From: Clostridia bacterium
Lineage (GTDB): Bacteria; Bacillota_A; Clostridia; Christensenellales; Aristaeellaceae
Assembly: GCA_017432405.1 (NCBI GenBank)
Contig: JAFRJF010000291.1
Coordinates: forward strand, 1 to 35,056
DNA length: 35,056 nt
Reading direction: 5' to 3'
Below the pieces are notes generated by a model that saw only the letters and a program-made list of their open reading frames with translations, was not told where the DNA came from and did no database searches. Each line of letters starts with the position of its first letter. The stretch's first letter is position 1. Shown here piece by piece: positions 3,623 to 35,056 of the stretch. Both the position numbers and the translations under genes were made by a program.

Positions 3623-4864
3623 ATGAAGAAGCTGCTTTGCCTGCTGCTGGCCGTCGCCACGGTGCTGGCGATGTCCGTCCTGCCCGCGATGGCGGAGGGC
3701 GCTGAGATCAACATGTTCATCTCCAGCCCCGAGTACGCGGACGCCGTGAACGAGCTGATCGCGGCCTACAAGGAGGTCGCGCCGGACGTGACCATCAACT
3801 ATGAGACCACCCAGAACGACTATCCCACCCTGCTGAAGACCCGCATCAACGCGGGCATGACCCCGGACATCTTCTCCACCACCTCCGGCAAGGAGATCGC
3901 GGACTACGCCGAGTATTCCTACAACTTTGCCGGCAGCCCCGCCGCCGAGGCGATGGACCCCGCAGTGGCGGCCATGATGGTCTATGGCGACGGCGAGATC
4001 CACGGCTTTGCGCTGAAGGGCAATTATTTCGGCATGCTGTACAACAAGGCCATCTTCGAGGAGGTCGGCATCGAATTCCCCAGGACCCTGGACGCGTTCG
4101 AGGCGGCCTGCGAGAAGCTGTCCGAGGCGGGCTACCAGCCCGTGACCACCGGCTTTGCCGAGTGGTGGGTGTTCAAGCACGTGATGCAGCACTTCCTGGA
4201 CGCCGCCAGCGACGATCCCGCCGCGCTGGTCGCCGCCTTCCAGAAGGGCGAGGCCCACTTCAAGGACTATCCCGTGCTGTATGACAACTTCTTCCGCTTC
4301 ATCGACCTGTGCGTGAAGTACGGCGACAACAAGCCCCTGGAGACCGACCTGGCGGGCGAGGACGCCGCCTTCGGCGCGGGCAAGGCCGCGATGATGACCG
4401 GCCAGGGCGCCTGGGTCGAGGCCGACGTGCTGGCCATCGACGATGCGCTCCAAATCGGCTTTGCGGGCTACCCCGTGACCGACGATCCGGCCAAGAGCCA
4501 GATCATCGGCGGTTCTGACCAGGCGCTGCGCATCAACAAGGATTCCGCGAACCTGGACGCCGTGATGGACTTCGTGAACTGGTGGTACACCAGCGACTAC
4601 GGCAAGGCCTGGTTCTGCGACGTGGCCGGCGTCATCCCGCCGATCACCGACGCGAAGGTGGCCGACATGCAGATCATCCAGCAGGGCTCTGAGCTGAGCG
4701 CCACCGACGGCGCGGCCGCGCTGAGCATCTGCTACTCCTCCGACAGCTTCAACCAGGCCATGGGCGAGGCCATCCAGGCCTACATCGGCGGCACCATCGA
4801 CAAGGATGCCTGCTGCGCGCAGATCGAGGCCAAGTGGGTCGAGCTGGACGGCGCCGCCCAGTAA
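3623..4864 (+). CDS. CUT1 family ABC transporter sugar-binding protein
   Basis: This 413-residue extracellular solute-binding protein (family 1) captures an oligosaccharide for the two permeases downstream. The signal peptide is residues 1-24, with an AMA|EG signal peptidase I site. The only Cys in it is at position 6, so there is no lipobox, unlike most Gram-positive binding proteins. The mature part shows family features: EINMFISSPEYADAVNEL near the start, LLKTRINAGMTPDIF, GMLYNKAIFEEVGIEFPRT, and an aromatic-rich C-terminal half. The ATG at 3623 follows AAGGAGG. No ATPase gene is present here, so a shared MsmK-type ATPase is expected elsewhere. A strong hairpin after the gene should make this protein more abundant than the permeases. 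The ligand is unknown; the neighbours point to xylosyl- or uronyl-containing oligosaccharides. Confidence 0.88.
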   Translation: MKKLLCLLLAVATVLAMSVLPAMAEGAEINMFISSPEYADAVNELIAAYKEVAPDVTINYETTQNDYPTLLKTRINAGMTPDIFSTTSGKEIADYAEYSYNFAGSPAAEAMDPAVAAMMVYGDGEIHGFALKGNYFGMLYNKAIFEEVGIEFPRTLDAFEAACEKLSEAGYQPVTTGFAEWWVFKHVMQHFLDAASDDPAALVAAFQKGEAHFKDYPVLYDNFFRFIDLCVKYGDNKPLETDLAGEDAAFGAGKAAMMTGQGAWVEADVLAIDDALQIGFAGYPVTDDPAKSQIIGGSDQALRINKDSANLDAVMDFVNWWYTSDYGKAWFCDVAGVIPPITDAKVADMQIIQQGSELSATDGAAALSICYSSDSFNQAMGEAIQAYIGGTIDKDACCAQIEAKWVELDGAAQ

Positions 4865-9112: not shown

Positions 9113-10981
9113 ATGTGTGGAATCGTGGGCTATACCGGCAATCGACCTGCCGCGCCGATCCTGCTGGAGGGGCTCTCCAGGTTGGAATACCGGGGCTACG
9201 ACTCCGCGGGATTGGCGGTGCGCGACGGCGAGCGCCTGGCCGAGGTGGTCAAGGCCCGGGGCAAGCTGCGCAACCTGGCGGTCAAGACCGACAACGGCCG
9301 CTCGCTGCCAGGCGCCTGCGGCATCGGCCACACCCGCTGGGCTACCCATGGCGAGCCCAGCCAGGCCAACGCCCATCCCCACGTCAGCGGCATCTGCAAG
9401 GGCTCCGGCTCGGGCCCGGTGGAGTCGGCGGTGGTGGGCGTGCACAACGGCATCATCGAAAACTTCGCCGAGCTGAAGGACAAGCTGCTGAAGAACGGCT
9501 ACCAGTTTTACAGCGAAACCGACACCGAGGTGGCGGTGAAGCTGGTGGACTACTATTATAAAAAGTACAAGATCGGCCCGGTGGACGCCATCAACCGCAT
9601 GATGGTGCGCGTGCGGGGCAGCTACGCCCTGGCGCTGATGTTCAGGGATTATCCCGGCGAGATCTATGCCGCCCGCAAGGATTCCCCGATGATCATCGGC
9701 ATGGGGGAGGGGGAGACCTTCCTGGCCTCCGACGTGCCGGCGATACTGAAGTACACCCGCAGCGTGTACTACATCGGCAACCTGGAGGTGGCGCGGCTGT
9801 GCCCCGGCGAGGTCACCTTCTTCGACCTGAACGGCGATGAAATCCAGAAGCAGCTGACCGAGGTCACCTGGGACGCCGAGGCGGCGGAAAAGGGCGGCTA
9901 CGAGCATTTCATGATCAAGGAGATCCATGAGGAGCCTGCCGCCGTGCGCGATACGCTGAACAGCGTGATCCACGAGGGCCGGATCGACCTGAGCGCCGCA
10001 GGCCTGACCGACGCGTGGCTTTCGGACGTGAGCCAGGTGTACATCGTGGCCTGTGGCTCGGCCTGGCACGTGGGCATGGCGGCACAGTACGTGATCGAGG
10101 ATATGGCCGGCGTGCCCGTGCGGGTGGAGCTGGCCTCGGAGTTCCGCTATCGCAGGCTGCTGCTGCCGTCAGGCGCGCTGGTGATCGTGATTTCCCAGTC
10201 GGGCGAGACGGCGGACAGCCTGGCCGCTCTGCGCCAGGCGAAGCAGTGCGGGGCGCGCACGCTGGCGGTGGTGAACGTGGTGGGCTCCTCCATCGCCCGG
10301 GAGGCCGACAACGTGCTGTACACGCTGGCAGGCCCGGAGATCGCCGTGGCCACCACGAAGGCCTATTCGGCCCAGCTGGCGGCGATGGACGCGCTGGCCG
10401 TGGCCCTGGGCCGGGCGAAGGGCGCGCTGGACGATGAGGCCTGCGAGCACTACGTGCAGGAGCTGCTGGCCCTGCCGGACAAGATCGCCCGGGTGCTGGA
10501 AGACAAGGAGCGCATCCAGTGGTTCGCGGCAAAATTCGCCAACGCCCACGACATATTCTTTATCGGCAGGGGCCTGGACTACGCCATCAGCCTCGAGGGC
10601 AGCCTGAAGATGAAGGAGATCAGCTACATCCACTCCGAGGCCTATGCCGCCGGCGAGCTGAAGCACGGCACCATCAGCCTGGTGGAGGACAACACGCTGG
10701 TCATAGGCGTGCTGACCCAGGACGACCTGTTTGAAAAGACCGTCAGCAACATGGTAGAGTGCAAGGCCCGTGGCGCCTACCTGATGGCCCTGACCAGCTA
10801 CGGCCACTACAGCGCCGAGGACACCGCCGACTTCACCGTCTACGTGCCCAAGGCCGACCCCCACTTCATGGGCAGCCTGGCTGTGGTGCCGCTGCAGCTG
10901 CTGGGCTACTACACCAGCGTCGCGCGAGGGCTGGATGTGGACAAGCCGAGAAACCTGGCCAAGAGCGTCACAGTTGAATGA
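9113..10981 (+). CDS. glmS: Glutamine-fructose-6-phosphate aminotransferase (isomerizing)
   Basis: This 622-residue enzyme makes glucosamine-6-phosphate from fructose-6-phosphate and glutamine, the first step to UDP-GlcNAc and peptidoglycan. The class II glutamine amidotransferase domain begins MCGIVGYTG, with Cys2 as nucleophile, and continues with LEYRGYDSAG, GHTRWATHGEPSQ and HNGIIENF. Two SIS sugar-isomerase domains follow (VACGSAWHVG, ISQSGETADSLAAL, ATTKAYSAQL, GRGLDYAISLEGSLKMKEISYIHSEAYAAGELKHG). The C-terminus DVDKPRNLAKSVTVE is the invariant end of the family. Length is normal. It is first in an operon with an LbH protein, nagB and glmM, so the locus holds both the entry and exit enzymes of glucosamine-6-phosphate. 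Confidence 0.97.
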   Translation: MCGIVGYTGNRPAAPILLEGLSRLEYRGYDSAGLAVRDGERLAEVVKARGKLRNLAVKTDNGRSLPGACGIGHTRWATHGEPSQANAHPHVSGICKGSGSGPVESAVVGVHNGIIENFAELKDKLLKNGYQFYSETDTEVAVKLVDYYYKKYKIGPVDAINRMMVRVRGSYALALMFRDYPGEIYAARKDSPMIIGMGEGETFLASDVPAILKYTRSVYYIGNLEVARLCPGEVTFFDLNGDEIQKQLTEVTWDAEAAEKGGYEHFMIKEIHEEPAAVRDTLNSVIHEGRIDLSAAGLTDAWLSDVSQVYIVACGSAWHVGMAAQYVIEDMAGVPVRVELASEFRYRRLLLPSGALVIVISQSGETADSLAALRQAKQCGARTLAVVNVVGSSIAREADNVLYTLAGPEIAVATTKAYSAQLAAMDALAVALGRAKGALDDEACEHYVQELLALPDKIARVLEDKERIQWFAAKFANAHDIFFIGRGLDYAISLEGSLKMKEISYIHSEAYAAGELKHGTISLVEDNTLVIGVLTQDDLFEKTVSNMVECKARGAYLMALTSYGHYSAEDTADFTVYVPKADPHFMGSLAVVPLQLLGYYTSVARGLDVDKPRNLAKSVTVE

Positions 10982-15584: not shown

Positions 15585-15656
15585 TGGAAAGTGGGACAAG
15601 AGAACCGTCCCCTTGTCCCATGGAAAGTGGGACAAGAGAACCGTCCCCTTGTCCCA
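15585..15656 (+). repeat. Two exact 36-bp tandem repeats
   Basis: Positions 15585-15620 and 15621-15656 are identical. Each begins TGGAAAGTGGGACAAG, contains GAGAACCGTCCCC, and ends TTGTCCCA, with TGGGACAA/TTGTCCCA as inverted arms. Repeats of this general look (TGGGACA...CGGTTCT...TGTCCCA) are familiar from Clostridia intergenic regions. Confidence 0.85.
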
Positions 15657-15742
15657 CACCAGCCGCCACCAGGCACGATCGTCATGGCGCCTGATAGGCG
15701 CCGCTACAGAGACAGCATTGAATATCGAGAGGAGCGACCCAC

Positions 15743-26210: not shown

Positions 26211-26363
26211 CGGTAAAGTTGGATTTTCAGAATAGGTTTTTTCAATAGCTTGACTGAACGGCGGAGTTTGTGAAACGCATAAGCAAATTGAAGATATAAA
26301 ACGATTTAGAAATCGAAAAAAGATATGAGGGGTAAAAATAGGACAGCAAAACGAAAAAAACAG

Positions 26364-26392
26364 TTGCATCTTATCTGCATGATTGTTATAAT
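26364..26392 (+). promoter_or_regulatory. Promoter of the cas operon
   Basis: TTGCAT (26364-26369) and a perfect TATAAT (26387-26392) are 17 bases apart, about 50 bases before the cas3 start. GGAGAAGGTGA (26430-26440) is the cas3 ribosome binding site. The reading frame is open upstream of the promoter, but this part is not translated. Confidence 0.75.
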
Positions 26393-26444
26393 TGTATTAA
26401 AGCACAAATTAAAAATCAGAGTGTCGAATGGAGAAGGTGATCCA

Positions 26445-29006
26445 ATGGATTATGATCGATGGCTATGGGGAAAATCCGAGCCGTTTTGCAGCTTGAGCCG
26501 GCATATGATGGCTGTCGGCGCATGCGTCATGGAATACCTTGGTGCAGCATCATCCAAGGGAATATTGATGCGCTTGAGTGAGTGGATGGGACTGGACGAG
26601 TATGAAACCATTCATACCTTCGGCTATATTGCTTCCGCTCACGACATCGGCAAGGCAAACCCCGGTTTTCAACCTTATTCGGGCGTAAGAGAAGGGACTT
26701 ATCGTGTTTTGAACTATCGCCATGAACAGTATGGGGCAACGAGATTGAAGACGATGTGGAAAAGTAGGGGCTGGCCTCGGCGTCAAATCAGTCTGTTGAC
26801 TGCTGTGATTCGGGTGCATCACCAGGGAAAGGGAATGGGTTACAGCGAAAAACCCGTTTCAGCAGAGTGGATGGCATTGCAGGACAGTCTCGAGACGAGG
26901 ATGTGGACATTGTTCAAACCGGTTGAAAAACTGCCAGCTTTTGAAAACGCGGATGCGTTGGGTGTTTTGTTGTCTGCCGTGCTGATCCTGTGCGACTGGG
27001 TTGCTTCATCCGAGGGCTTTGGTGCGGAAGCATTGCCGGAGCTGGAGGATGTTGAACTGTTGGGTGCGCTGCGGGTGAGGGCACACCAGGTACTGGGCCA
27101 GTACGGCTTAATTGACGGTGAAGCGTGCGCCTATCCCAGGAAGACTTCGTTTTCGGCGCTGTTTCCCGCAATCCCGATTCATGGCATGAGGCCGCTCCAG
27201 GCGGCTTGCGAAACCGTCGGCGATCGTCCGGCTATGCTGACGATCATAGAAGCGCCGATGGGTGAGGGGAAGACGGAGGCAGCGTTGTATATGGCAGGGA
27301 GGTTGTGTGAAACCTTCGACAAGCGCGGCATTTATATGGCGCTGCCTACGGCAGCCACCAGCAATCAAATGGTCGATCGCGTTCGCCATATGCTGGAGGC
27401 GCACCAGTCCGGCAAGGCACGATTGTTGCACAGCATGGCCTGGTTGATTGACGATCAGTCGCTGCCTGCTGAAGCATTTGAAACAGACGACGCTCCAAGC
27501 GCAGAGGATTGGCTGCGGCCTTTGCGCAGGGGCATGCTGTCGGGAAATGCTGTCGGTACTGTAGACCAGGCCATGGCCGCTGCGCTGAGGATCAAATACG
27601 GTTTTTTGAGATTGGCGGGGCTGGAAAACAAGGTGCTCATCATCGACGAAATTCATGCCTATGACCTGTTTATGAGCACGATCATCGCTCGCTTGTTGGA
27701 ATGGTGCCGCGTCATGCGGATACCCGTCATTCTGCTGTCCGCGACCATGCAGGCTCAACAGAAGAGAAAATATCTTGCTTGCTATGGCATCAGGGATGTA
27801 AAAACAGAGAATGCCTATCCGCTGATCACTCAGGTGTCGGAAGCCAGGCAGGTCCGCGAAACGAAGATTACCAACGTATATATGAGGGGTTCGTTTCGAT
27901 TCATTCCCAGGCCTCTTGGCAGCGATTCGGCTGCTGTGGCGGAATATGCCATCGAGCGGGCTTCCGGCGGAGGGTGCATTTGCGTGATGCTGAACACGGT
28001 TCGGCAGGCGCAAGCGGTTTATCGGGAATTAAAGCGGCGTGGTGAGACACAAGTGATGTTGTTTCATGCGCGTTTCACGGCGAAGCGACGCGCTGAAATT
28101 GAGGAACAGTGCATTAAGGTGTTCGGCAAGGGCGGCGCACGTCCGGAACGGATGATATTGGTGTGTACCCAGGTCGTGGAGCAGAGTTTGGACGTGGACT
28201 TTGATGCCATGATCACCCAACTGGCGCCCATGGATCTGCTGCTACAACGGGCAGGACGCGTTCATCGACATGGGGACAATCGGCGCCCGGCAGGTATGGA
28301 ACGGCCTGAGATAGATGTGATCGTGCCGGAGCCCAGTTCAACAATGGATGTGGACAAGCGCTTCCGACAAATTGGCGGCGTCTACAGGCCGTCCGTCATG
28401 AAGAGCACCGAACAGCTGCTGGGACAGGGCAGGACAGTTTTGGTGCCGGAGGATGTCCGCGTGTGTGTCGAGGAGGCTTACAAAGATATCTCCGATCAGG
28501 AGCCCAATGAGGCGATTCAGGAGATGATGAAGGATATGTACAGCGTCACATCGGCCGAGGGCGTATTACTTGTTTCACCGGAGACGGATGAATTCTTCGC
28601 GGAAACCCCGAGCGTTGCCAACAGCCTGAGCCTGACAGATTCCAATGAGGATACATTTTTGCACAGCGCCAGGACGCGCGAAAACGATAATTCCCAGCGA
28701 TTTGCTTTTTTGCCAAAGGATTTTCCTGAATCTGACGGCAGCCGTCGGTGGTTGAAACAGGTGATGGAATACAGCTGCAGCTGTCCCGTGAAAAAGCATG
28801 CGATGGAGGCGCGGAAAGAAGGAGAAAAATGGAACAAAGGCTTGACAAAGCAACAAGGTGCAGGTATAATAGGAAACAACAAGGGAAAAGGTAATAATAT
28901 AAAAGAGTGTATTCTGCTACGTGAAGGGGGAGATGGCTTATACCATGGTCAGGATTATACCTTTTCGTGTTCGGATGAGTATGGTGTGGAGGAGGTGTCG
29001 GAGTGA
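26445..29006 (+). CDS. cas3: Type I-E Cas3 nuclease-helicase
   Basis: This 853-residue protein has the Cas3 order: an HD nuclease domain at the N-terminus (H20, AHDIGK with H66/D67, VHHQGKG) and an SF2 helicase. The helicase has Walker A APMGEGKTEAAL (K276), DEIHAYD (D401-H404), LLSATM, and motif VI LLQRAGRVHRHGD. The C-terminal part is shorter but ends in ILLREGGDGLYHGQDYTF, resembling other Cas3 tails. It is recruited by Cascade to unwind and shred the target strand. The start at 26445 follows GGAGAAGGTGA. The stop overlaps cas8e by four bases. Its 3' end also contains a consensus promoter at 28842-28870. Confidence 0.95.
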   Translation: MDYDRWLWGKSEPFCSLSRHMMAVGACVMEYLGAASSKGILMRLSEWMGLDEYETIHTFGYIASAHDIGKANPGFQPYSGVREGTYRVLNYRHEQYGATRLKTMWKSRGWPRRQISLLTAVIRVHHQGKGMGYSEKPVSAEWMALQDSLETRMWTLFKPVEKLPAFENADALGVLLSAVLILCDWVASSEGFGAEALPELEDVELLGALRVRAHQVLGQYGLIDGEACAYPRKTSFSALFPAIPIHGMRPLQAACETVGDRPAMLTIIEAPMGEGKTEAALYMAGRLCETFDKRGIYMALPTAATSNQMVDRVRHMLEAHQSGKARLLHSMAWLIDDQSLPAEAFETDDAPSAEDWLRPLRRGMLSGNAVGTVDQAMAAALRIKYGFLRLAGLENKVLIIDEIHAYDLFMSTIIARLLEWCRVMRIPVILLSATMQAQQKRKYLACYGIRDVKTENAYPLITQVSEARQVRETKITNVYMRGSFRFIPRPLGSDSAAVAEYAIERASGGGCICVMLNTVRQAQAVYRELKRRGETQVMLFHARFTAKRRAEIEEQCIKVFGKGGARPERMILVCTQVVEQSLDVDFDAMITQLAPMDLLLQRAGRVHRHGDNRRPAGMERPEIDVIVPEPSSTMDVDKRFRQIGGVYRPSVMKSTEQLLGQGRTVLVPEDVRVCVEEAYKDISDQEPNEAIQEMMKDMYSVTSAEGVLLVSPETDEFFAETPSVANSLSLTDSNEDTFLHSARTRENDNSQRFAFLPKDFPESDGSRRWLKQVMEYSCSCPVKKHAMEARKEGEKWNKGLTKQQGAGIIGNNKGKGNNIKECILLREGGDGLYHGQDYTFSCSDEYGVEEVSE
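28842..28870 (+). promoter_or_regulatory. Consensus promoter inside the 3' end of cas3
   Basis: TTGACA (28842-28847) and TATAAT (28865-28870) are 17 bases apart: a full consensus match in the sense direction, 133 bases before the cas8e start. The TTATACC repeat in the following stretch (28938 and 28954) could be a control site. It would express Cascade and the adaptation genes without Cas3. Confidence 0.75.
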
Positions 29007-30481
29007 TTTCGGTACTGTATGCGCCGCTGTTTACAGCGGTATATGATGAGAGCATGGAAAAGGTGCTCGGCCTGATGGATCTGTTGGCGGACGCCCATCT
29101 CATTACCGAGCTGAAGGCCAACAGCTGCACAGGAAAGCTGGCACTGTTGCGATTTTGCATGGCCTTCCTGTCGGATGCCTATCAGCTGGATAAGCTGAAT
29201 CAGCGCGCGGATTTGTTGGAAAGAGGCTGCTTTGACAAGGATTTGCTGTTGGATTATGTACATAGATGTGAACAAGCCGGAGCGTGCTTCAATTTGGACG
29301 ACGGGAAGAAACCGTTCATGCAGGCGGGATATGACGAAGCATTGGATGCAAAGGCAGAGAAGCCGGTGGCCAAGATAATGTTTGATCGACCGGGTGGGAA
29401 CAATCACATTCACCTTGATCACAGGCTGGAGGACGAACACACAGTGGATACAGCCTGTGCCTTTGAGGCGATGCTGGAAACCTACCTCTTCTGCCCCGCC
29501 GGTCTGTCCGGGCCGTCGGGCGTGAACAATACACCCCCCGTATATGTGCTGATTCATGGGAGTAACCTCTTTGAAACACTCGTATTGAACATGGTATCCT
29601 GCAAGGAGATTGGGGGCATCCCCTATGGACGTGGGGAAGTAGCGTGGAGGCGCGACGAAAACATCATTCCGGGAACAAAGACGGTGGAGATGTCGCTGCT
29701 GAAGGCATTGACCTGGCAGCCCCGCCGCCTGACGCTGTGTTGGGATGAGGACGGTATGATTCGCCGCCTGTATTTGCAAAAAGGCCTCAATTTCCAGGGC
29801 AATGGATTGTGGCTGGATCCGCATGTAATCTATCGCCAGACCAAGGACGGGACACTGGCATCCGTCAAGCCGGAGCTGGGCAGGGAACTGTGGAGGGATG
29901 CAGGCAATTTGGTCAGGGGCGCCCAGGGAATCCGCAGTACAGTGCCGCTTGAAAACATTCGCGAGTTGGTCTCAGAACAGTCGGGAGACATGGATGTTGA
30001 GATGGTTGGACTGGTGACCAACCAGGAAGCCGTGCTGGGCCGGGTGAACGAGCGCTTCAAGCTGCCGGCGGTACTGTTCGAGGACCCGGAAAAGGCCTCT
30101 GAGTTCAAGAATGCCCTGGATATCTGTGAAGCAGTGTATCGTGAGCTTGACAAGGCGGTCAAGTGGCAATTTTGCCACCCGGGGGACAAGAAAAAGCGCA
30201 GCGATGTCGCCCAACAGGCGGGAGAGGTCTTCCTGCACGCGATGCGGACGGTGTTGTTTGTCCAATATCTGCAGTGGCTGCGGGAGAACCTGAATTTCAG
30301 GGAACGCACGCGCAGGTACTTTGATGCCATATGGGCGGTGCTGAACGCGCAGGTGCTGATGGGCGTAATCGAACAGACCGGAGATGACGTGCCCTCCATC
30401 AAGCGGCAGAACGCGGTGAGGGGAAAGATCAGAAAGGAGTACCTGAGTATCAGAGAGAGGAGCTGTGGTGCGGATGAGTGA
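29003..30481 (+). CDS. cas8e: Type I-E Cascade large subunit Cas8e (Cse1/CasA)
   Basis: This 492-residue protein is the Cascade subunit that reads the PAM and recruits Cas3. It shows Cse1 features: KLALLRFCMAFLSDAY, a CFNLDDGKKPFMQAGYDE-like segment in the N-terminal domain, and SGPSGVNNTPPVYVLIHGSNLFETL in the middle. A C-terminal helix bundle contains the Arg-rich RENLNFRERTRRYFDAIWAVL. Length is typical of Cse1. It starts at a GTG overlapping the cas3 stop, with GGAGGAG (28988-28994) upstream. A promoter 133 bases upstream can make it independently of cas3. It is followed by cse2 with an eight-base overlap. Confidence 0.93.
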   Translation: MISVLYAPLFTAVYDESMEKVLGLMDLLADAHLITELKANSCTGKLALLRFCMAFLSDAYQLDKLNQRADLLERGCFDKDLLLDYVHRCEQAGACFNLDDGKKPFMQAGYDEALDAKAEKPVAKIMFDRPGGNNHIHLDHRLEDEHTVDTACAFEAMLETYLFCPAGLSGPSGVNNTPPVYVLIHGSNLFETLVLNMVSCKEIGGIPYGRGEVAWRRDENIIPGTKTVEMSLLKALTWQPRRLTLCWDEDGMIRRLYLQKGLNFQGNGLWLDPHVIYRQTKDGTLASVKPELGRELWRDAGNLVRGAQGIRSTVPLENIRELVSEQSGDMDVEMVGLVTNQEAVLGRVNERFKLPAVLFEDPEKASEFKNALDICEAVYRELDKAVKWQFCHPGDKKKRSDVAQQAGEVFLHAMRTVLFVQYLQWLRENLNFRERTRRYFDAIWAVLNAQVLMGVIEQTGDDVPSIKRQNAVRGKIRKEYLSIRERSCGADE

Positions 30482-30995
30482 TTCGAAGTGGGACCTGTCT
30501 AAATTGGATGCGGGTGAGCTGAGCGCCTTGAGGCGTTCAGCCGGAACGATGGTGGAAGGGGCAAGCATGGATGCCCTGCGGGCGTTTTACAAAGCCTGCG
30601 GCTATTGTGATCCGAAGCGCGAGGCATACTGGTTTCCAGCCGTGTGCATGGATGCGCTGTGGCGGGACACGGATGTTGTGAAGGTCAGGCCCATGGCGGA
30701 ATGCCTGAGGGCCATGATCGGGCAGGATGCCAGTGCTACCGCGAGCATGCAGCACCGAATCGACATGCTGTTGGAGACGCCGTGGGGCAGGGATGGATTT
30801 CTGTTGGGAAAGATGTTGAACCAGGTGAAGCTGTTGAAATCGAAGACGGACTTGAAACCGGATTTTCAGATGCTCGCAGATGATTTGCGCAGGTGGAATG
30901 ACACGGGGCACCGTGTACAACGGGAATGGTTGAGGATTCTGTACAACGCCAAGCCGATAACAACCGATGAGGAGGATACGAATAATGTTGATTGA
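30474..30995 (+). CDS. cse2: Type I-E Cascade small subunit Cse2 (Cas11/CasB)
   Basis: This 173-residue, mostly helical protein has DLSKLDAGELSALRRSAGT near the start and a C-terminal part with LLVGKMLNQV-like LLGKMLNQVKLLKSKTDLK and LADDLRRWNDTG, as in Cse2 proteins. Two copies normally sit in the belly of Cascade and stabilise the R-loop. The ATG at 30474 is preferred; GTG codons at 30465 and 30468 are also in frame, and GAGGAG (30457-30462) cannot decide between them. It overlaps cas8e by eight bases and the cas7e start by eleven. Confidence 0.85.
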   Translation: MSDSKWDLSKLDAGELSALRRSAGTMVEGASMDALRAFYKACGYCDPKREAYWFPAVCMDALWRDTDVVKVRPMAECLRAMIGQDASATASMQHRIDMLLETPWGRDGFLLGKMLNQVKLLKSKTDLKPDFQMLADDLRRWNDTGHRVQREWLRILYNAKPITTDEEDTNNVD

Positions 30996-32109
30996 GATTC
31001 ATATGCTAAAAAATTACCCGCCGGTGAACCTGAACCGTGATGACAGTGGCGCGCCGAAGACGTGTTTCTTTGGGGGTGTGCAGCGAGGACGCATTTCCAG
31101 CCAATGCCTGAAGCGCAGCTGGCGCATGTCGGAGTCCTTTCGCAAATTGGGCAGTGCCGGCATTCGGACCCGTCGGATGCCGGAACAGGTGGCAAAGCGC
31201 CTGATTGAACAGGGCATAGGCGAGGATTATGCAGAGCGCGCCCAACAGATGCTGACCGGCATTGTCAATAAAGAAGGCAAAGAGAAGAAGGAGGGATATA
31301 CGGAACAGATCGTCATTTATGCTCCCGAGGATATCGATACGCTGACCGATGCGGTGATGAAGGCCATCTCAGAGGATGGAGAATTTAAAAAGTTTAAGGC
31401 GCGCAAGGCCAGTGATTTCAAAAAGATGGTGGACGGTGCGGCAATGCGACCGGTCACTGCAGACATTGCGCTGTTCGGCCGCATGGTGACCTCGGATTGC
31501 TTCCGGGACGTGGATGCTTCGATCCAGGTAGCCCATGCCATATCCACCCACGCCGTCAGCCGGGAGAGCGACTATTTTACTGCAGTGGATGATTTGCTTC
31601 AGGATGGAGAAGTCGGTGCCGGCATGATGGGTGATGTGGACTTTAACAGCTGCTGCTACTATGAATATGCTGCCTTGGATACGGACCAGCTTCGGGAAAA
31701 CCTGAAGTATACCGATAACTGTGAGGAGCTGATGGACAGGCTTGTGCCCGCATTGCTTCGGACAATGATCGTCACCAATCCCTCCGGCAAGCAGAATACC
31801 TTTGCCGGCCAGGTGCTGCCCGCTCTGATCCTGGTGGAGTGCAAGCAGGACAAGATTCCCCTCAGCTATGTAAATGCCTTTGAAGACCCTGTGACCCCCT
31901 ATGGTGGCCAGGGCATTGTGACAAAGAGTGTTGCACGTCTGTCCGCACATGTAGCGGCCATGGATGCTGCCTACCAGCTGCCGGTGGCACACCGGGCATG
32001 GATGAGCCCCCTGCAGGATTTGGATGAATCCATGCATGGCGAGCGCGTGGCCTCTATGCCGGCACTGTTGGAGCGTGTAGCGGCATGGGTGAAGGAGGAT
32101 CAGCCGTGA
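30985..32109 (+). CDS. cas7e: Type I-E Cascade backbone subunit Cas7e (Cse4/CasC)
   Basis: This 374-residue protein forms the six-fold backbone that holds the crRNA. It begins MLIEIHMLKNYPPVNLNRDDSGAPKTC, the Cas7e signature, followed by FFGGVQRGRISSQCLKRSWR. Later blocks are ADIALFGRMVT, AIQVAHAISTH-like VAHAISTHAV, YYEYAALD and NAFEDPV. Length is typical. The ATG at 30985 is chosen because GAGGAG lies about nine bases before it; the ATG at 30967 overlaps that site. It overlaps cas5e by four bases. No unusual residues were seen. Confidence 0.95.
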   Translation: MLIEIHMLKNYPPVNLNRDDSGAPKTCFFGGVQRGRISSQCLKRSWRMSESFRKLGSAGIRTRRMPEQVAKRLIEQGIGEDYAERAQQMLTGIVNKEGKEKKEGYTEQIVIYAPEDIDTLTDAVMKAISEDGEFKKFKARKASDFKKMVDGAAMRPVTADIALFGRMVTSDCFRDVDASIQVAHAISTHAVSRESDYFTAVDDLLQDGEVGAGMMGDVDFNSCCYYEYAALDTDQLRENLKYTDNCEELMDRLVPALLRTMIVTNPSGKQNTFAGQVLPALILVECKQDKIPLSYVNAFEDPVTPYGGQGIVTKSVARLSAHVAAMDAAYQLPVAHRAWMSPLQDLDESMHGERVASMPALLERVAAWVKEDQP

Positions 32110-32786
32110 AGCTGCTGACGTTTTTGCTGTCTGCGCCGATGCAGAGCTGGGGCGACGATTCGCGCTGGGATCATCGCGCTACCGCCGCCATGCCCACCAA
32201 ATCGGCCATTATTGGCATGCTGGGCTGTTGCCTGGGCTATGGTCGGGGTGACGCGAGACTCAGGGAACTGAGCGAAAAGCTGCATGTCGCTGTGCGTGCG
32301 GATCGCTCGGGGAGGCCGATGTGGGATTTCCAGACGGTGCAAAATCCGGGCGGAAAGATACTCAATGCCATGGGAAAGCCCAGGGGTGAGACGATCATCA
32401 CGCCCAAGCAATATCTACAGGACGCGGCCTTCCAGGTGTTCGTCTATGGCGATGAAGCGATGTTGGACAAATGCTGCCATGCCATGCGTCACCCGCGTTG
32501 GGCGATATGCCTGGGCCGGCGATCCTGCCCGCCGGCGTTACCCGTGATTCCCTATTTGACCGAGGAATACGATACGGTCCGGGATGCCCTGGAGCGCTAT
32601 TGTGATGTACACATGGCATACTCCGGGGAATACGCAGAGGGCCAGGTTGAGGCCGTTGCCGGTGAGGTGCTGGAAGGCCAGGTCATCACCCGCATGGATG
32701 AAGTCGTTCGTGGCGACCTGAACCAGTATCAGGAGCGCGTCGTCTGTACACATGTGGTAAAAAGGAGGGCACAGGAATGTATCTGA
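32106..32786 (+). CDS. cas5e: Type I-E Cascade subunit Cas5e (CasD)
   Basis: This 226-residue RAMP protein caps the 5' handle of the crRNA. It begins MKLLTFLLSAPMQSWGDDSRWDHR, then PTKSAIIGMLGCCLGYGRGD, the Cas5e signature, with PKQYLQDAAFQVFVYG and CLGRRSCPPALPV in the middle. The start is a GTG whose TGA neighbour ends cas7e (GTGA overlap), with GGAGG (32094-32098) seven bases upstream. It overlaps cas6e by ten bases. Confidence 0.95.
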   Translation: MKLLTFLLSAPMQSWGDDSRWDHRATAAMPTKSAIIGMLGCCLGYGRGDARLRELSEKLHVAVRADRSGRPMWDFQTVQNPGGKILNAMGKPRGETIITPKQYLQDAAFQVFVYGDEAMLDKCCHAMRHPRWAICLGRRSCPPALPVIPYLTEEYDTVRDALERYCDVHMAYSGEYAEGQVEAVAGEVLEGQVITRMDEVVRGDLNQYQERVVCTHVVKRRAQECI

Positions 32787-33412
32787 GCAAGATTGTGCTG
32801 GATATTCGACACCCCAGCGTCCGCCAGGCGCTGAGGGATGTCAACGATATGCATCGGAATCTGATGGCCGGATTTGAAGCGCAATTGTCCCAAGGGACGG
32901 CTCGGGCCGATCAACAGGTGCTCTATCGCCTCTTTTCCGGGCGGGATCAGGTCTATTTGCTGGTATCCAGTCGCGAGAGGCCCAATGCGGATAAGCTGGC
33001 GGCCCGTGGTTTCCGCACGGAGCCCGCCCTTATTCGGGACATATCACCGCTGAAGGAAGTGTTCAGGGAAGGAACGTGTTTTCGGTTTGAACTGCTGGCT
33101 TCACCCTGCAAAAAGGTGGGTGGAGCGGGCAATAACAGCCGTCGCGTTTTCCTGGATACGCCCGAGGCGCGCATCGAGTGGCTCCGCAGAAAGGCGGAGC
33201 AGGGCGGTTTTGAAATAGTGTTTGTGGACGAAATGGCCAATCGCGTCGATGCCTGCGGCCATCGGGGCGCTATGATGATCAAGAATTCAGGCGCTGTGTT
33301 TTCCGGTGTGCTTCGGGTCACGAACGCAAGCGCATTCTGGAAGAGCTATACCTGCGGTATAGGACCGGGAAAAGCCTATGGTATGGGCATGCTGAATCTG
33401 TCCAAAGCATGA
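32777..33412 (+). CDS. cas6e: CRISPR RNA endonuclease Cas6e (CasE)
   Basis: This 211-residue protein cuts the CRISPR transcript at the base of each repeat hairpin and stays bound. It begins MYLSKIVLDIRHPSVRQALRD, with H26 in DMHRNLM, the position of the catalytic His in Thermus Cse3. The Gly-rich loop GIGPGKAYGMGML at the end is the RAMP RNA-binding loop. AAAGGAGGG (32761-32769) precedes the ATG. Two repeat-like hairpins begin right after its stop codon, so its own mRNA may be a substrate. Confidence 0.95.
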   Translation: MYLSKIVLDIRHPSVRQALRDVNDMHRNLMAGFEAQLSQGTARADQQVLYRLFSGRDQVYLLVSSRERPNADKLAARGFRTEPALIRDISPLKEVFREGTCFRFELLASPCKKVGGAGNNSRRVFLDTPEARIEWLRRKAEQGGFEIVFVDEMANRVDACGHRGAMMIKNSGAVFSGVLRVTNASAFWKSYTCGIGPGKAYGMGMLNLSKA

Positions 33413-33482
33413 TATCCCCGCTCTGCGGGGGTGAACCTGGAAACGGTAACAATAGCGAGCTTTCCCCACGTGAGTGGGGGCG
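33413..33482 (+). repeat. Two degenerate CRISPR-repeat-like hairpins between cas6e and cas1
   Basis: The first (about 33413-33441) has CCCCGC/GCGGGG (33416-33430) with loop TCT and then the exact GTGAACC handle of array repeats. The second (about 33461-33482) has CCCCAC/GTGGGG (33464-33479) with loop GTGA, the exact stem of array repeats, but a changed 3' flank. The stems are 48 bases apart, against 61 in the array. The stretch between reads GGAAACGGTAACAATAGCGA. GGGAGG for cas1 follows directly. Confidence 0.75.
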
Positions 33483-33495
33483 ATGGGAGGCTGTG

Positions 33496-34416
33496 ATGCC
33501 CAGAGATTTACATGAACTGTCGCGCCTTGAGGATAGCCTGAGCTATCTGTACATAGATAAGGCAATAGTGGAACGCGACGTGAATTCAATTGTCATCATG
33601 CGTGGGAATGAGAGAATACCTGTTCCGATATCTTCACTAACGGTGCTGATGCTTGGGCCAGGAACAAATCTGACTCATGCTGCAATGAAGGTGATTGCGG
33701 ATAGCGGATGTCTGGTCATATGGTGTGGCGAGGGGGCATTGAGATTTTATGGCTATGGCATGGGGGAAACCCGGTCTGCCGGGAATCTGCTCAGACAGGC
33801 GCAGTGCTGCATGGATGCACAAAAGCACATAGAAGTGGTACGACGCATGTTTGAACTTCGCTTTCCCGGAATGGATCTGTCCGGGAAGAGCCTACAGCAG
33901 ATGCGAGGCATGGAAGGTATACGGATGCGCGAAACCTATAAGCTGCAGGCAAGCAAACACGGGCTCATTTGGAAGGGGCGCAGCTATAAGCTTGAGGATT
34001 GGGATGCTTCCGATGATCTGAATAAAGCATTGTCTTCAGCGAATGCATGCCTTTACGGACTGTGCAATGCTGCAATCGTTTCTCTTGGGTATTCGCCTGG
34101 ACTGGGCTTTATCCATACCGGGAAGATGATGTCCTTTGTCTATGACATTGCCGACCTGTACAAGGCGGAGACTACCATTCCGGTGGCCTTTGACATCGTG
34201 ACGCAACCGAGAACAGAACCGATTGAACGTGAGGCGCGAATTCGATTGAGAAGGGTGTTGCGGGAAAGGCGCATACTAAAGCGCATCGCCAAGGATATTG
34301 CCTTTATGTTTGATGCGATGGCTGATGAAGACCCCAACAGAATTGATGCAGGTGAATTGTGGGATGGAGAAAACCAAACGATAGATGGCGGTATAAACCA
34401 TGGAGTAGATGTATGA
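33496..34416 (+). CDS. cas1: Type I-E CRISPR integrase Cas1
   Basis: This 306-residue protein, with Cas2, inserts new spacers at the leader end of the array. Metal ligands are E140 in QQMRGMEGIRMR, H207 in GFIHTGKMMSFVYDIAD and D220, equivalent to E141, H208 and D221 of the E. coli enzyme. The start at 33496 has GGGAGG (33485-33490) just downstream of the repeat-like hairpins; the frame is open further upstream but through those hairpins. A short acidic tail extends past the usual end. It overlaps cas2 by four bases. Confidence 0.96.
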   Translation: MPRDLHELSRLEDSLSYLYIDKAIVERDVNSIVIMRGNERIPVPISSLTVLMLGPGTNLTHAAMKVIADSGCLVIWCGEGALRFYGYGMGETRSAGNLLRQAQCCMDAQKHIEVVRRMFELRFPGMDLSGKSLQQMRGMEGIRMRETYKLQASKHGLIWKGRSYKLEDWDASDDLNKALSSANACLYGLCNAAIVSLGYSPGLGFIHTGKMMSFVYDIADLYKAETTIPVAFDIVTQPRTEPIEREARIRLRRVLRERRILKRIAKDIAFMFDAMADEDPNRIDAGELWDGENQTIDGGINHGVDV

Positions 34417-34703
34417 CAGTATTGGTTCTTGAAAACGTGTCTTCTGGTTTCCGTGGAGAAGTGACACAGTGGTTACTGGAAATAAAGACGGGCGTCTTTG
34501 TCGGCAATATATCGGCGGCAGTGAGACAACGATTATGGAAAAAGGTGAACGACAATGCAAGTGATGGTGCTGCTCTGATGATTTTCTCTGCTCCGAATGA
34601 ACAAGGGTTTGCAGTGGAAGTGTGCCATATGCCTGAGCGAAATGTGGTTGATATGGAGGGGATATACCTGATAAAAAGAATCGTTAACAGCAAGAATGAT
34701 TAA
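34413..34703 (+). CDS. cas2: Type I-E CRISPR adaptation protein Cas2
   Basis: This 96-residue protein begins MTVLVLENVSSGFRGEVTQW, the Cas2e signature, then LLEIKTGVFVGNISAAVRQRLWKKV. It forms the dimer that bridges two Cas1 dimers. The ATGA overlap with cas1 couples their translation. The stop lies only 17 bases before the first CRISPR repeat, so the leader of the array must overlap the 3' end of this gene. Confidence 0.95.
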   Translation: MTVLVLENVSSGFRGEVTQWLLEIKTGVFVGNISAAVRQRLWKKVNDNASDGAALMIFSAPNEQGFAVEVCHMPERNVVDMEGIYLIKRIVNSKND

Positions 34704-34720: not shown

Positions 34721-35056
34721 ATTGTCCCCACGCATGTGGGGGTGAACCGGCCCACGCGGTGATTCGCCACCGCTCCAGCGAATTGTCCCCACGCATGTGG
34801 GGGTGAACCGCCCTGGAGAGCGCCGTCGGCTCCTGCGAGGAGATTGTCCCCACGCATGTGGGGGTGAACCGAATCCTCGGTTGTGGAGCCATGCGCAAAT
34901 CCTATTGTCCCCACGCATGTGGGGGTGAACCGCCGACATACACGCCATAGTCCCAGCGCGTATGATTGTCCCCACGCATGTGGGGGTGAACCGTGTAAAG
35001 ATATAGCAAAGTCTCCCCCCTAAAGATTGTCCCCACGCATGTGGGGGTGAACCGGC
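34721..35056 (+). CRISPR. Type I-E CRISPR array, leader end, cut by the window edge
   Basis: Six identical 29-base repeats begin at 34721, 34782, 34843, 34904, 34965 and 35026, an exact 61-base period, with five 32-base spacers. Each repeat begins ATTGTCCCCACGC, has the stem CCCCAC/GTGGGG around GCAT, and ends GGGTGAACCG, the usual type I-E form with an eight-base GTGAACCG handle. Spacers lie at 34750-34781, 34811-34842, 34872-34903, 34933-34964 and 34994-35025; four are GC-rich and the last AT-rich. The array goes on beyond 35056. Orientation matches the cas operon. Confidence 0.98.

Follow-up and report, generated by a model that had tools for sequence, protein, structure and literature searches.

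The 83-nt gap between cas6e and cas1 in the window (the whole 35,056-nt stretch of clostridial DNA analyzed here) very probably holds a creR gene, as judged from the sequence, and a guide RNA freed from it by Cas6e would direct Cascade to the promoter of cse1 and block transcription of the genes from cse1 to cas2. The immune system would probably be using its own guide RNA to hold down its own expression. The repeats, the handle, the guide, the PAM, the target, the promoter consensus and a co-varying guide and target in a relative can each be read off the DNA.

A complete type I-E operon occupies the end of the window, with 8/8 genes present on the plus strand: cas3 (26325–29006 as an ORF, the true start possibly lying further in), cse1 (cas8e, 29003–30481), cse2 (cas11, 30465–30995), cas7e (30967–32109), cas5e (32085–32786), cas6e (32777–33412), cas1e (33496–34416, with its ATG at 33496) and cas2e (34413–34703). 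A canonical CRISPR array follows on the same strand, with six repeats at a 61-nt period up to the window end (34721–35056). Cas6e, the predicted processing enzyme, is a recognizable homolog of CasE/Cse3, including proteins of solved structure. Elsewhere in the window, positions 15585–15656 carry a perfect 36-bp tandem duplication with inverted sequence of the GGGACAAG/CTTGTCCC type.

The gap contains two degenerate CRISPR repeats flanking a 20-nt spacer, all on the plus strand. The first repeat forms a stem-loop, CCCCGC-TCT-GCGGGG (33416–33430), with a predicted 8-nt 5′ handle, GTGAACCT, directly after it (33431–33438). The 20-nt guide (33439–33458) leads into the second repeat, the predicted 3′ handle (33459–33479), which consists of a 5-nt flank and the stem-loop CCCCAC-GTGA-GTGGGG (33464–33479). 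The handle that comes next, GCGATGGG, is degenerate, which could weaken the second predicted cut. Just 3′ of that cut lies GGGAGG (33485–33490), the ribosome binding site of cas1. By the array repeat and the usual cutting by Cas6e, the mature CreR RNA would measure 49 nt (33431–33479) and begin with GUGAACCU; it would be made up of the 8-nt handle, 20 nt of spacer and, at the 3′ end, 21 nt that include the stem-loop, compared with 8 + 32 + 21 in the first array unit, a canonical crRNA of 61 nt.

The initial annotation had described two array-type hairpins ahead of the cas1 ribosome binding site, one of them with GTGAACC, and both the coordinates and the pattern counts confirm this. The stems start 48 nt apart in the gap vs 61 nt in the array. 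The array-type pattern of a stem followed by GTGAACC occurs at 7 places in the window, hairpin 1 accounting for one and the array repeats for the other six; 100 shuffles give an expectation of 0.00. The tetraloop stem of hairpin 2 likewise occurs at 7 places without mismatch, all on the plus strand (hairpin 2 and the six array repeats), and with at most one mismatch on both strands it occurs at 14 places, all in the gap or the array, against 0.77 expected. Folding z-scores are unremarkable both in the window and in the array repeat (–1.66, –1.09, –1.09, and –1.74; the array repeat itself –1.09) and were not used as evidence: the support for the gap repeats is sequence identity to the array repeat, together with relatives and a target, not folding energy. 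Comparison with Rfam returned nothing above the gathering score. Measured against a canonical I-E array, which has near-identical repeats, 32–33-nt spacers and ∼61-nt spacing, the gap unit departs in its 48-nt spacing, its 20-nt spacer and its differing repeats; it agrees with the mini-CRISPR form of CreR, in which ectopic repeats stand outside the array and are degenerate relative to it.

The same 83 nt can also be read as coding sequence, since the cas1 frame is open from an ATG at 33409 that overlaps the cas6e stop as ATGA, giving 29 in-frame codons without a stop (33409–33496). An N-terminal extension of Cas1 is nevertheless scarcely credible: the alignments of three Cas1 relatives begin at the internal start, which has its own ribosome binding site in the window, and in the related genome G028 (described below), where the gap is 118 nt long, the cas1 ORF starts at its own ATG without an extension.

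The creR reading is also supported by the target of its guide, which the initial annotation had left unnamed and which we place at 28884–28903. The spacer was scanned against the window with each sixth position left unscored, as these bases are flipped out in type I crRNA–DNA duplexes. The best match begins at 28884 on the plus strand, with AAG, the I-E PAM, in front (28881–28883), and comprises 14/14 counted positions in the first 16, the mismatches within that stretch being exactly positions 6 and 12. This AAG-flanked match is unique within the window. A run of 14 anywhere in the window, PAM not required, was reached by 0/1500 shuffled spacers and by 12/1500 random window 21-mers in a first control; in a larger one it was reached by 30/3000 (21 from the array or a tandem repeat, nine elsewhere), and by 0/3000 with AAG in front. 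The pattern of PAM plus target has one window place at zero mismatches, with 0.04 places expected at up to three.

The target lies at a predicted promoter of cse1–cas2 within the 3′ end of cas3 (28842–28870, plus strand), which is recognized by its match to consensus (TTGACA-17-TATAAT, 12/12). It is the best of 12 promoter-like sites found by a promoter scan of 8.7 kb. The target starts 14 nt past the –10 box and 119 nt ahead of cse1; with transcription likely to start at ∼28877, bound Cascade would therefore sit at the start of transcription. A site in the upstream region of cas3, with just an 8-nt match, no PAM and seed mismatches, was dropped in favor of the internal promoter site. Given that position in the cas3 3′ end, the predicted loop covers cse1 to cas2 and leaves the cas3 start alone. 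The suggestion in the initial annotation of feedback on cas1–cas2 or on the whole operon is supported as regards cas autoregulation, predicted from cse1 to cas2; the targeted promoter is an internal one, not that of the operon start.

A crRNA-like guide at a promoter also recalls CreTA-type modules, in which the guide represses a toxin and not the cas genes. The anatomy of the unit is that of CreA, cas6 and cas8 flank the creTA of Haloarcula hispanica according to PMC8501985, and a 41-codon plus-strand frame (28921–29046) follows the promoter. Set against this, the promoter runs straight into cse1, and that frame, which overlaps cas3 and cse1 out of frame, is besides cse1 the sole plus-strand frame of at least 20 codons starting between promoter and cse1 and has nothing to mark it as a gene. 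No recognizable toxin gene was found under the targeted promoter on inspection of the frames between promoter and cse1. A tiny RNA toxin may lie there, and we consider a CreTA-type module highly improbable.

A comparison for creR comes from an uncultured Clostridiales bacterium, RUG12259 (G028, represented by loci L026 and L029), whose Cas6e and Cas1 are 48% and 69% identical to those of the window. Its 118-nt cas6e–cas1 gap also has two hairpins, the first followed by GTGAACCA, and a 19-nt spacer unlike the window's; their folding (z = –2.32) is slightly stronger than in the window and was again not used as evidence. An exact-seed search of this locus missed the target owing to a mismatch at seed position 3, and the target surfaced when total matches were ranked and a genome-wide check followed. 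The match begins at 5973 of L026, is flanked by AAG and has mismatches at positions 3, 6, and 12 in the first 16 (13/14 counted positions). Again the target falls in the 3′ end of cas3, 14 nt past the –10 box, an offset equal to the window's, and its promoter (TTGACA-17-TACAAT, 11/12) is the best promoter-like site of the region. In the 3.6-Mb genome, the guide itself aside, no place other than the cse1-promoter target comes within one mismatch of the guide pattern; six further places have two mismatches, and a reversed control pattern has four within two.

Guide and target have changed together between the window and G028, as far as the two sequences tell, and a different guide at the same promoter and the same offset is what selection for guide–promoter pairing would predict. 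In both genomes the guide is partly complementary to the cognate cas promoter, as in CreR, and its target stands beside the PAM of the subtype. AAG was found without being required in the window, in G028 and in L065, one of the survey loci described below; the PAM is likewise AAG in L062, L036, and L191, for which the searches required one (AAG or ATG, or AAG). The PAM-flanked seed match at the promoter and the co-varied pair in G028 lend strong support, at the level of sequence, to the earlier idea of a CreR-type, crRNA-like unit, and overall the initial interpretation is partly supported.

We then asked how common repeats are at this site. A Cas1 search of six genome samplings and two collections yielded 126 distinct cas1-matching loci, and cas6e lies directly upstream of cas1 in 90 of them; the remaining 36 include weak matches, matches at contig ends and other gene orders. 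Viral contigs contributed one distant cas1. The gap is at most 45 nt long in 77 of the 90 and longer in 13, and the pattern test found repeat-like hairpins in 4/90, all among the 13 longer gaps, so that this location of the repeats is rare. The initial annotation's call for conserved hairpins in relatives has a divided answer: they are kept, with a co-varying target, in G028, and among the 90 loci they are confined to these four and absent from G052, which has a gap of –1 although its Cas1 is 69% identical to the window's.

A matching target was found in two of the four loci (the window, G028, L059, and L065). In L059, from an Anaerolineae MAG, the gap has just one I-E repeat, with an inverted repeat after it (4044–4150), and no target for it was found within its 5.9 kb. 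L065, from assembly G1043, has two near-intact repeats with a 33-nt spacer at 9871–9949, beside a broken cas1, and the I-E repeat pattern has no matches in that assembly other than these two; no target was found for the pair, a promoter-near match having TGC as PAM and a run of only 7. In G052, a small array in which six repeats were detected lies between cas3 and cse1 (L027, 5036–5430), and the loop of its repeat differs from that of the array downstream of cas2.

The L065 pair, near-intact, in the corresponding gap, with no target found and next to a broken cas1, is what a worn-out array remnant might look like, and terminal array repeats are often degenerate. On such a reading the window's spacer was acquired from the operon, or matches it by chance, and has no present regulatory role. 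We judge this very unlikely for the window: its repeats differ from the array while seed pairing is preserved, guide and target are both different in G028, and the target has an equal promoter offset in both genomes.

Isolated repeats were also surveyed across I-E loci. A lax test (PAM AAG or ATG, 9/10 seed positions) hardly separated isolated repeats from array spacers, with targets for 3/44 vs 43/851. All three isolated matches had AAG, at least 13/14 positions and a place at a cas promoter; it is in the longer matches that isolated and array spacers differ. A strict test (AAG, 9/10 seed, 12/14 overall), its threshold chosen after three pairs were known (window, G028, and L065), was run on 70 loci totaling 964 kb, a few of which are one contig fetched twice. 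It passed 6/415 isolated candidates vs 0/1245 shuffled isolated spacers, and 5/875 array spacers (0/61 in further loci), which seem by their coordinates to match in or beside arrays, vs 4/2625 of their shuffles.

Five of the six strict matches precede cas genes, in the window, G028, L036, L062, and L065; the sixth (window minus strand, 1079 to 28131) was judged to be chance. In 20 further loci, for which the strict test was run without shuffles, 2/33 candidates passed: L191 (assembly G1354) and L203, the latter an artifact of a repeat matching a repeat. L062 had first appeared at the lax threshold, L036 and L191 at the strict one.

The units and targets sit at several places. L065 has a second unit (1593–2900) before cas3, and its target follows a TTGACA-17-TATACT promoter. 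This promoter precedes a gene for a DUF1016/YhcG-type PD-(D/E)XK nuclease, itself ahead of cas3, and with a creR-like unit matching the promoter in front of it the nuclease may share control by guide RNA. In L062 the target adjoins the –35 box of a promoter that lies ahead of cas1, and in L036 target and unit lie together ahead of cas3. In L191 the unit (15590–15680) comes ∼11 nt after cas6e and closes an operon whose first gene is cas1, and its target is ∼30 nt before cas1. The promoter scan found no plus-strand promoter near the target in L036 or L191, so the case for these two lies in the match together with its position before the first cas gene. The contig of L036 also carries a lone repeat with a different loop (G1044 C15, 59121), 304 nt beyond the point where the last array repeat begins.

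Across the 70 loci (964 kb), none of the first five guides has a match outside the cas promoter or leader of its own locus. Over the six pairs, positions 6 and 12, which the search did not score, match in 2/12 cells, about the chance level, as expected for flipped-out bases; the other positions among 1–11 match in 58/60 and positions 13–16 in 20/24, both raised by the threshold. Three of the six pairs have a 19–20-nt spacer. As one Cas7 step is 6 nt, such a spacer is about two steps short of normal. The relatives with pairs are labeled in their assemblies as uncultured Clostridiales, Lachnospiraceae (twice) and Veillonellaceae, and are mostly animal-gut assemblies.

These loci also bear on a reading in which the spacer is irrelevant and the hairpins are a Cas6e cutting or binding site on the mRNA that sets cas1–cas2 expression apart from that of Cascade. 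Both stems keep the repeat geometry, the second ends 5 nt ahead of the cas1 Shine–Dalgarno sequence, and the pair lies exactly at the boundary between Cascade and adaptation genes in the window and in G028. We nonetheless regard this reading as unlikely. It leaves the PAM-flanked spacer match to the cse1 promoter in both genomes unexplained; the second stem of G028 is 54 nt from the cas1 start, so that closeness to the ribosome binding site is not kept; and ectopic pairs occur elsewhere in other loci, including before cas3. Such an effect on the mRNA could accompany the guide function of creR as a side effect and need not be an alternative to it.

CreR, a cas-regulating RNA also termed a mini-CRISPR regulatory RNA (PMC12948488), is reported for types I-B, I-E, and V-A in the matched passages of PMC13131331 and PMC12737573, and with CreR already reported for I-E the kind of element is known. 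The likeness, here by sequence, lies in a crRNA-like guide partly complementary to a cas promoter and in the autorepression by the effector that is predicted from it. The window differs in three ways: its unit lies within the operon, flanked by cas6e and cas1; the promoter targeted is inside cas3; and the spacer is 20 nt long. The CreR reviews and CreTA papers among the matches listed give no gene location for I-E CreR in the passages matched, and the cas6e-adjacent, intra-operon layout may be new.

CreA has, like the window unit, two divergent repeats that give an 8-nt 5′ handle and a 3′ handle (predicted in the window) and represses its own operon promoter, as would be expected of the window unit, and in CreA experiments guide positions 1–5 and 7–11 were needed and 6 and 12 dispensable (PMC8501985, as excerpted). 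It differs in that the window has no recognizable toxin gene, its target drives Cascade genes, and its PAM is AAG vs TTC. With tracr-L (type II) and Francisella scaRNA, too, the effector becomes a repressor through a natural guide derived from a repeat, and tracr-L represses its own cas operon, according to the text seen of PMC8730458. Both differ from the window unit in their effector class (Cas9) and in having no repeat pair. Neither is known to involve processing by Cas6.

From these features we infer that the unit is transcribed, cut by Cas6e, loaded onto Cascade and used for repression that competition would release. The mRNA from the promoter at 28842–28870 would run through cse1, cse2, cas7, cas5, and cas6e into creR, and Cas6e would cut at the 3′ base of both hairpins, giving the 49-nt crRNA-like RNA with its 8-nt handle, 20-nt guide and stem-loop. 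Cascade loaded with CreR would then bind the AAG-flanked target just past the –10 box, pairing through positions 1–5, 7–11, and 13–16, and block transcription from cse1 to cas2, the pairing being too short for Cas3 to destroy its own locus. The steps of release by Cas6e and delivery by Cascade are proposed by analogy with CreA and CreR. More Cascade and Cas6e would make more repressor, and repression would be lifted when array crRNAs or phage inhibitors use up Cascade. As its own 3′ end holds the target, cas3 would be expected to escape most control, and repression probably spares it. In type I-B, guides of at most 26 nt repress without cleavage, according to the passages seen of PMC10551041, which also notes that shortened crRNAs had yet to be shown to repress in E. 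coli I-E; by analogy, the 20- and 19-nt spacers of the window and G028 would fit the I-B length range for repression without cleavage.

A more specific arrangement, possible though on balance doubtful as a whole, is a self-metering CreR placed directly behind cas6e, as in the window, in G028 and at the operon end in G1354, whose guide would be excised, at the pace at which Cas6e is made, from the mRNA of the very operon that it silences. Both in the window and in G028, Cascade and adaptation genes would be repressed and cas3 spared, the short spacer would give repression without cleavage, and the same cuts would split cas1–cas2 from the Cascade message.

The window is a compact and testable example of what seems to be a CRISPR system governing itself by its own guide RNA, for which the co-varied guide and target in G028 serve as a natural evolutionary double mutant. 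From the survey, I-E operons, mostly in animal-gut assemblies, seem to have acquired CreR-like units repeatedly and at several positions. Operons of this kind could appear silent as long as Cascade is not taken up by phage proteins or by many crRNAs.
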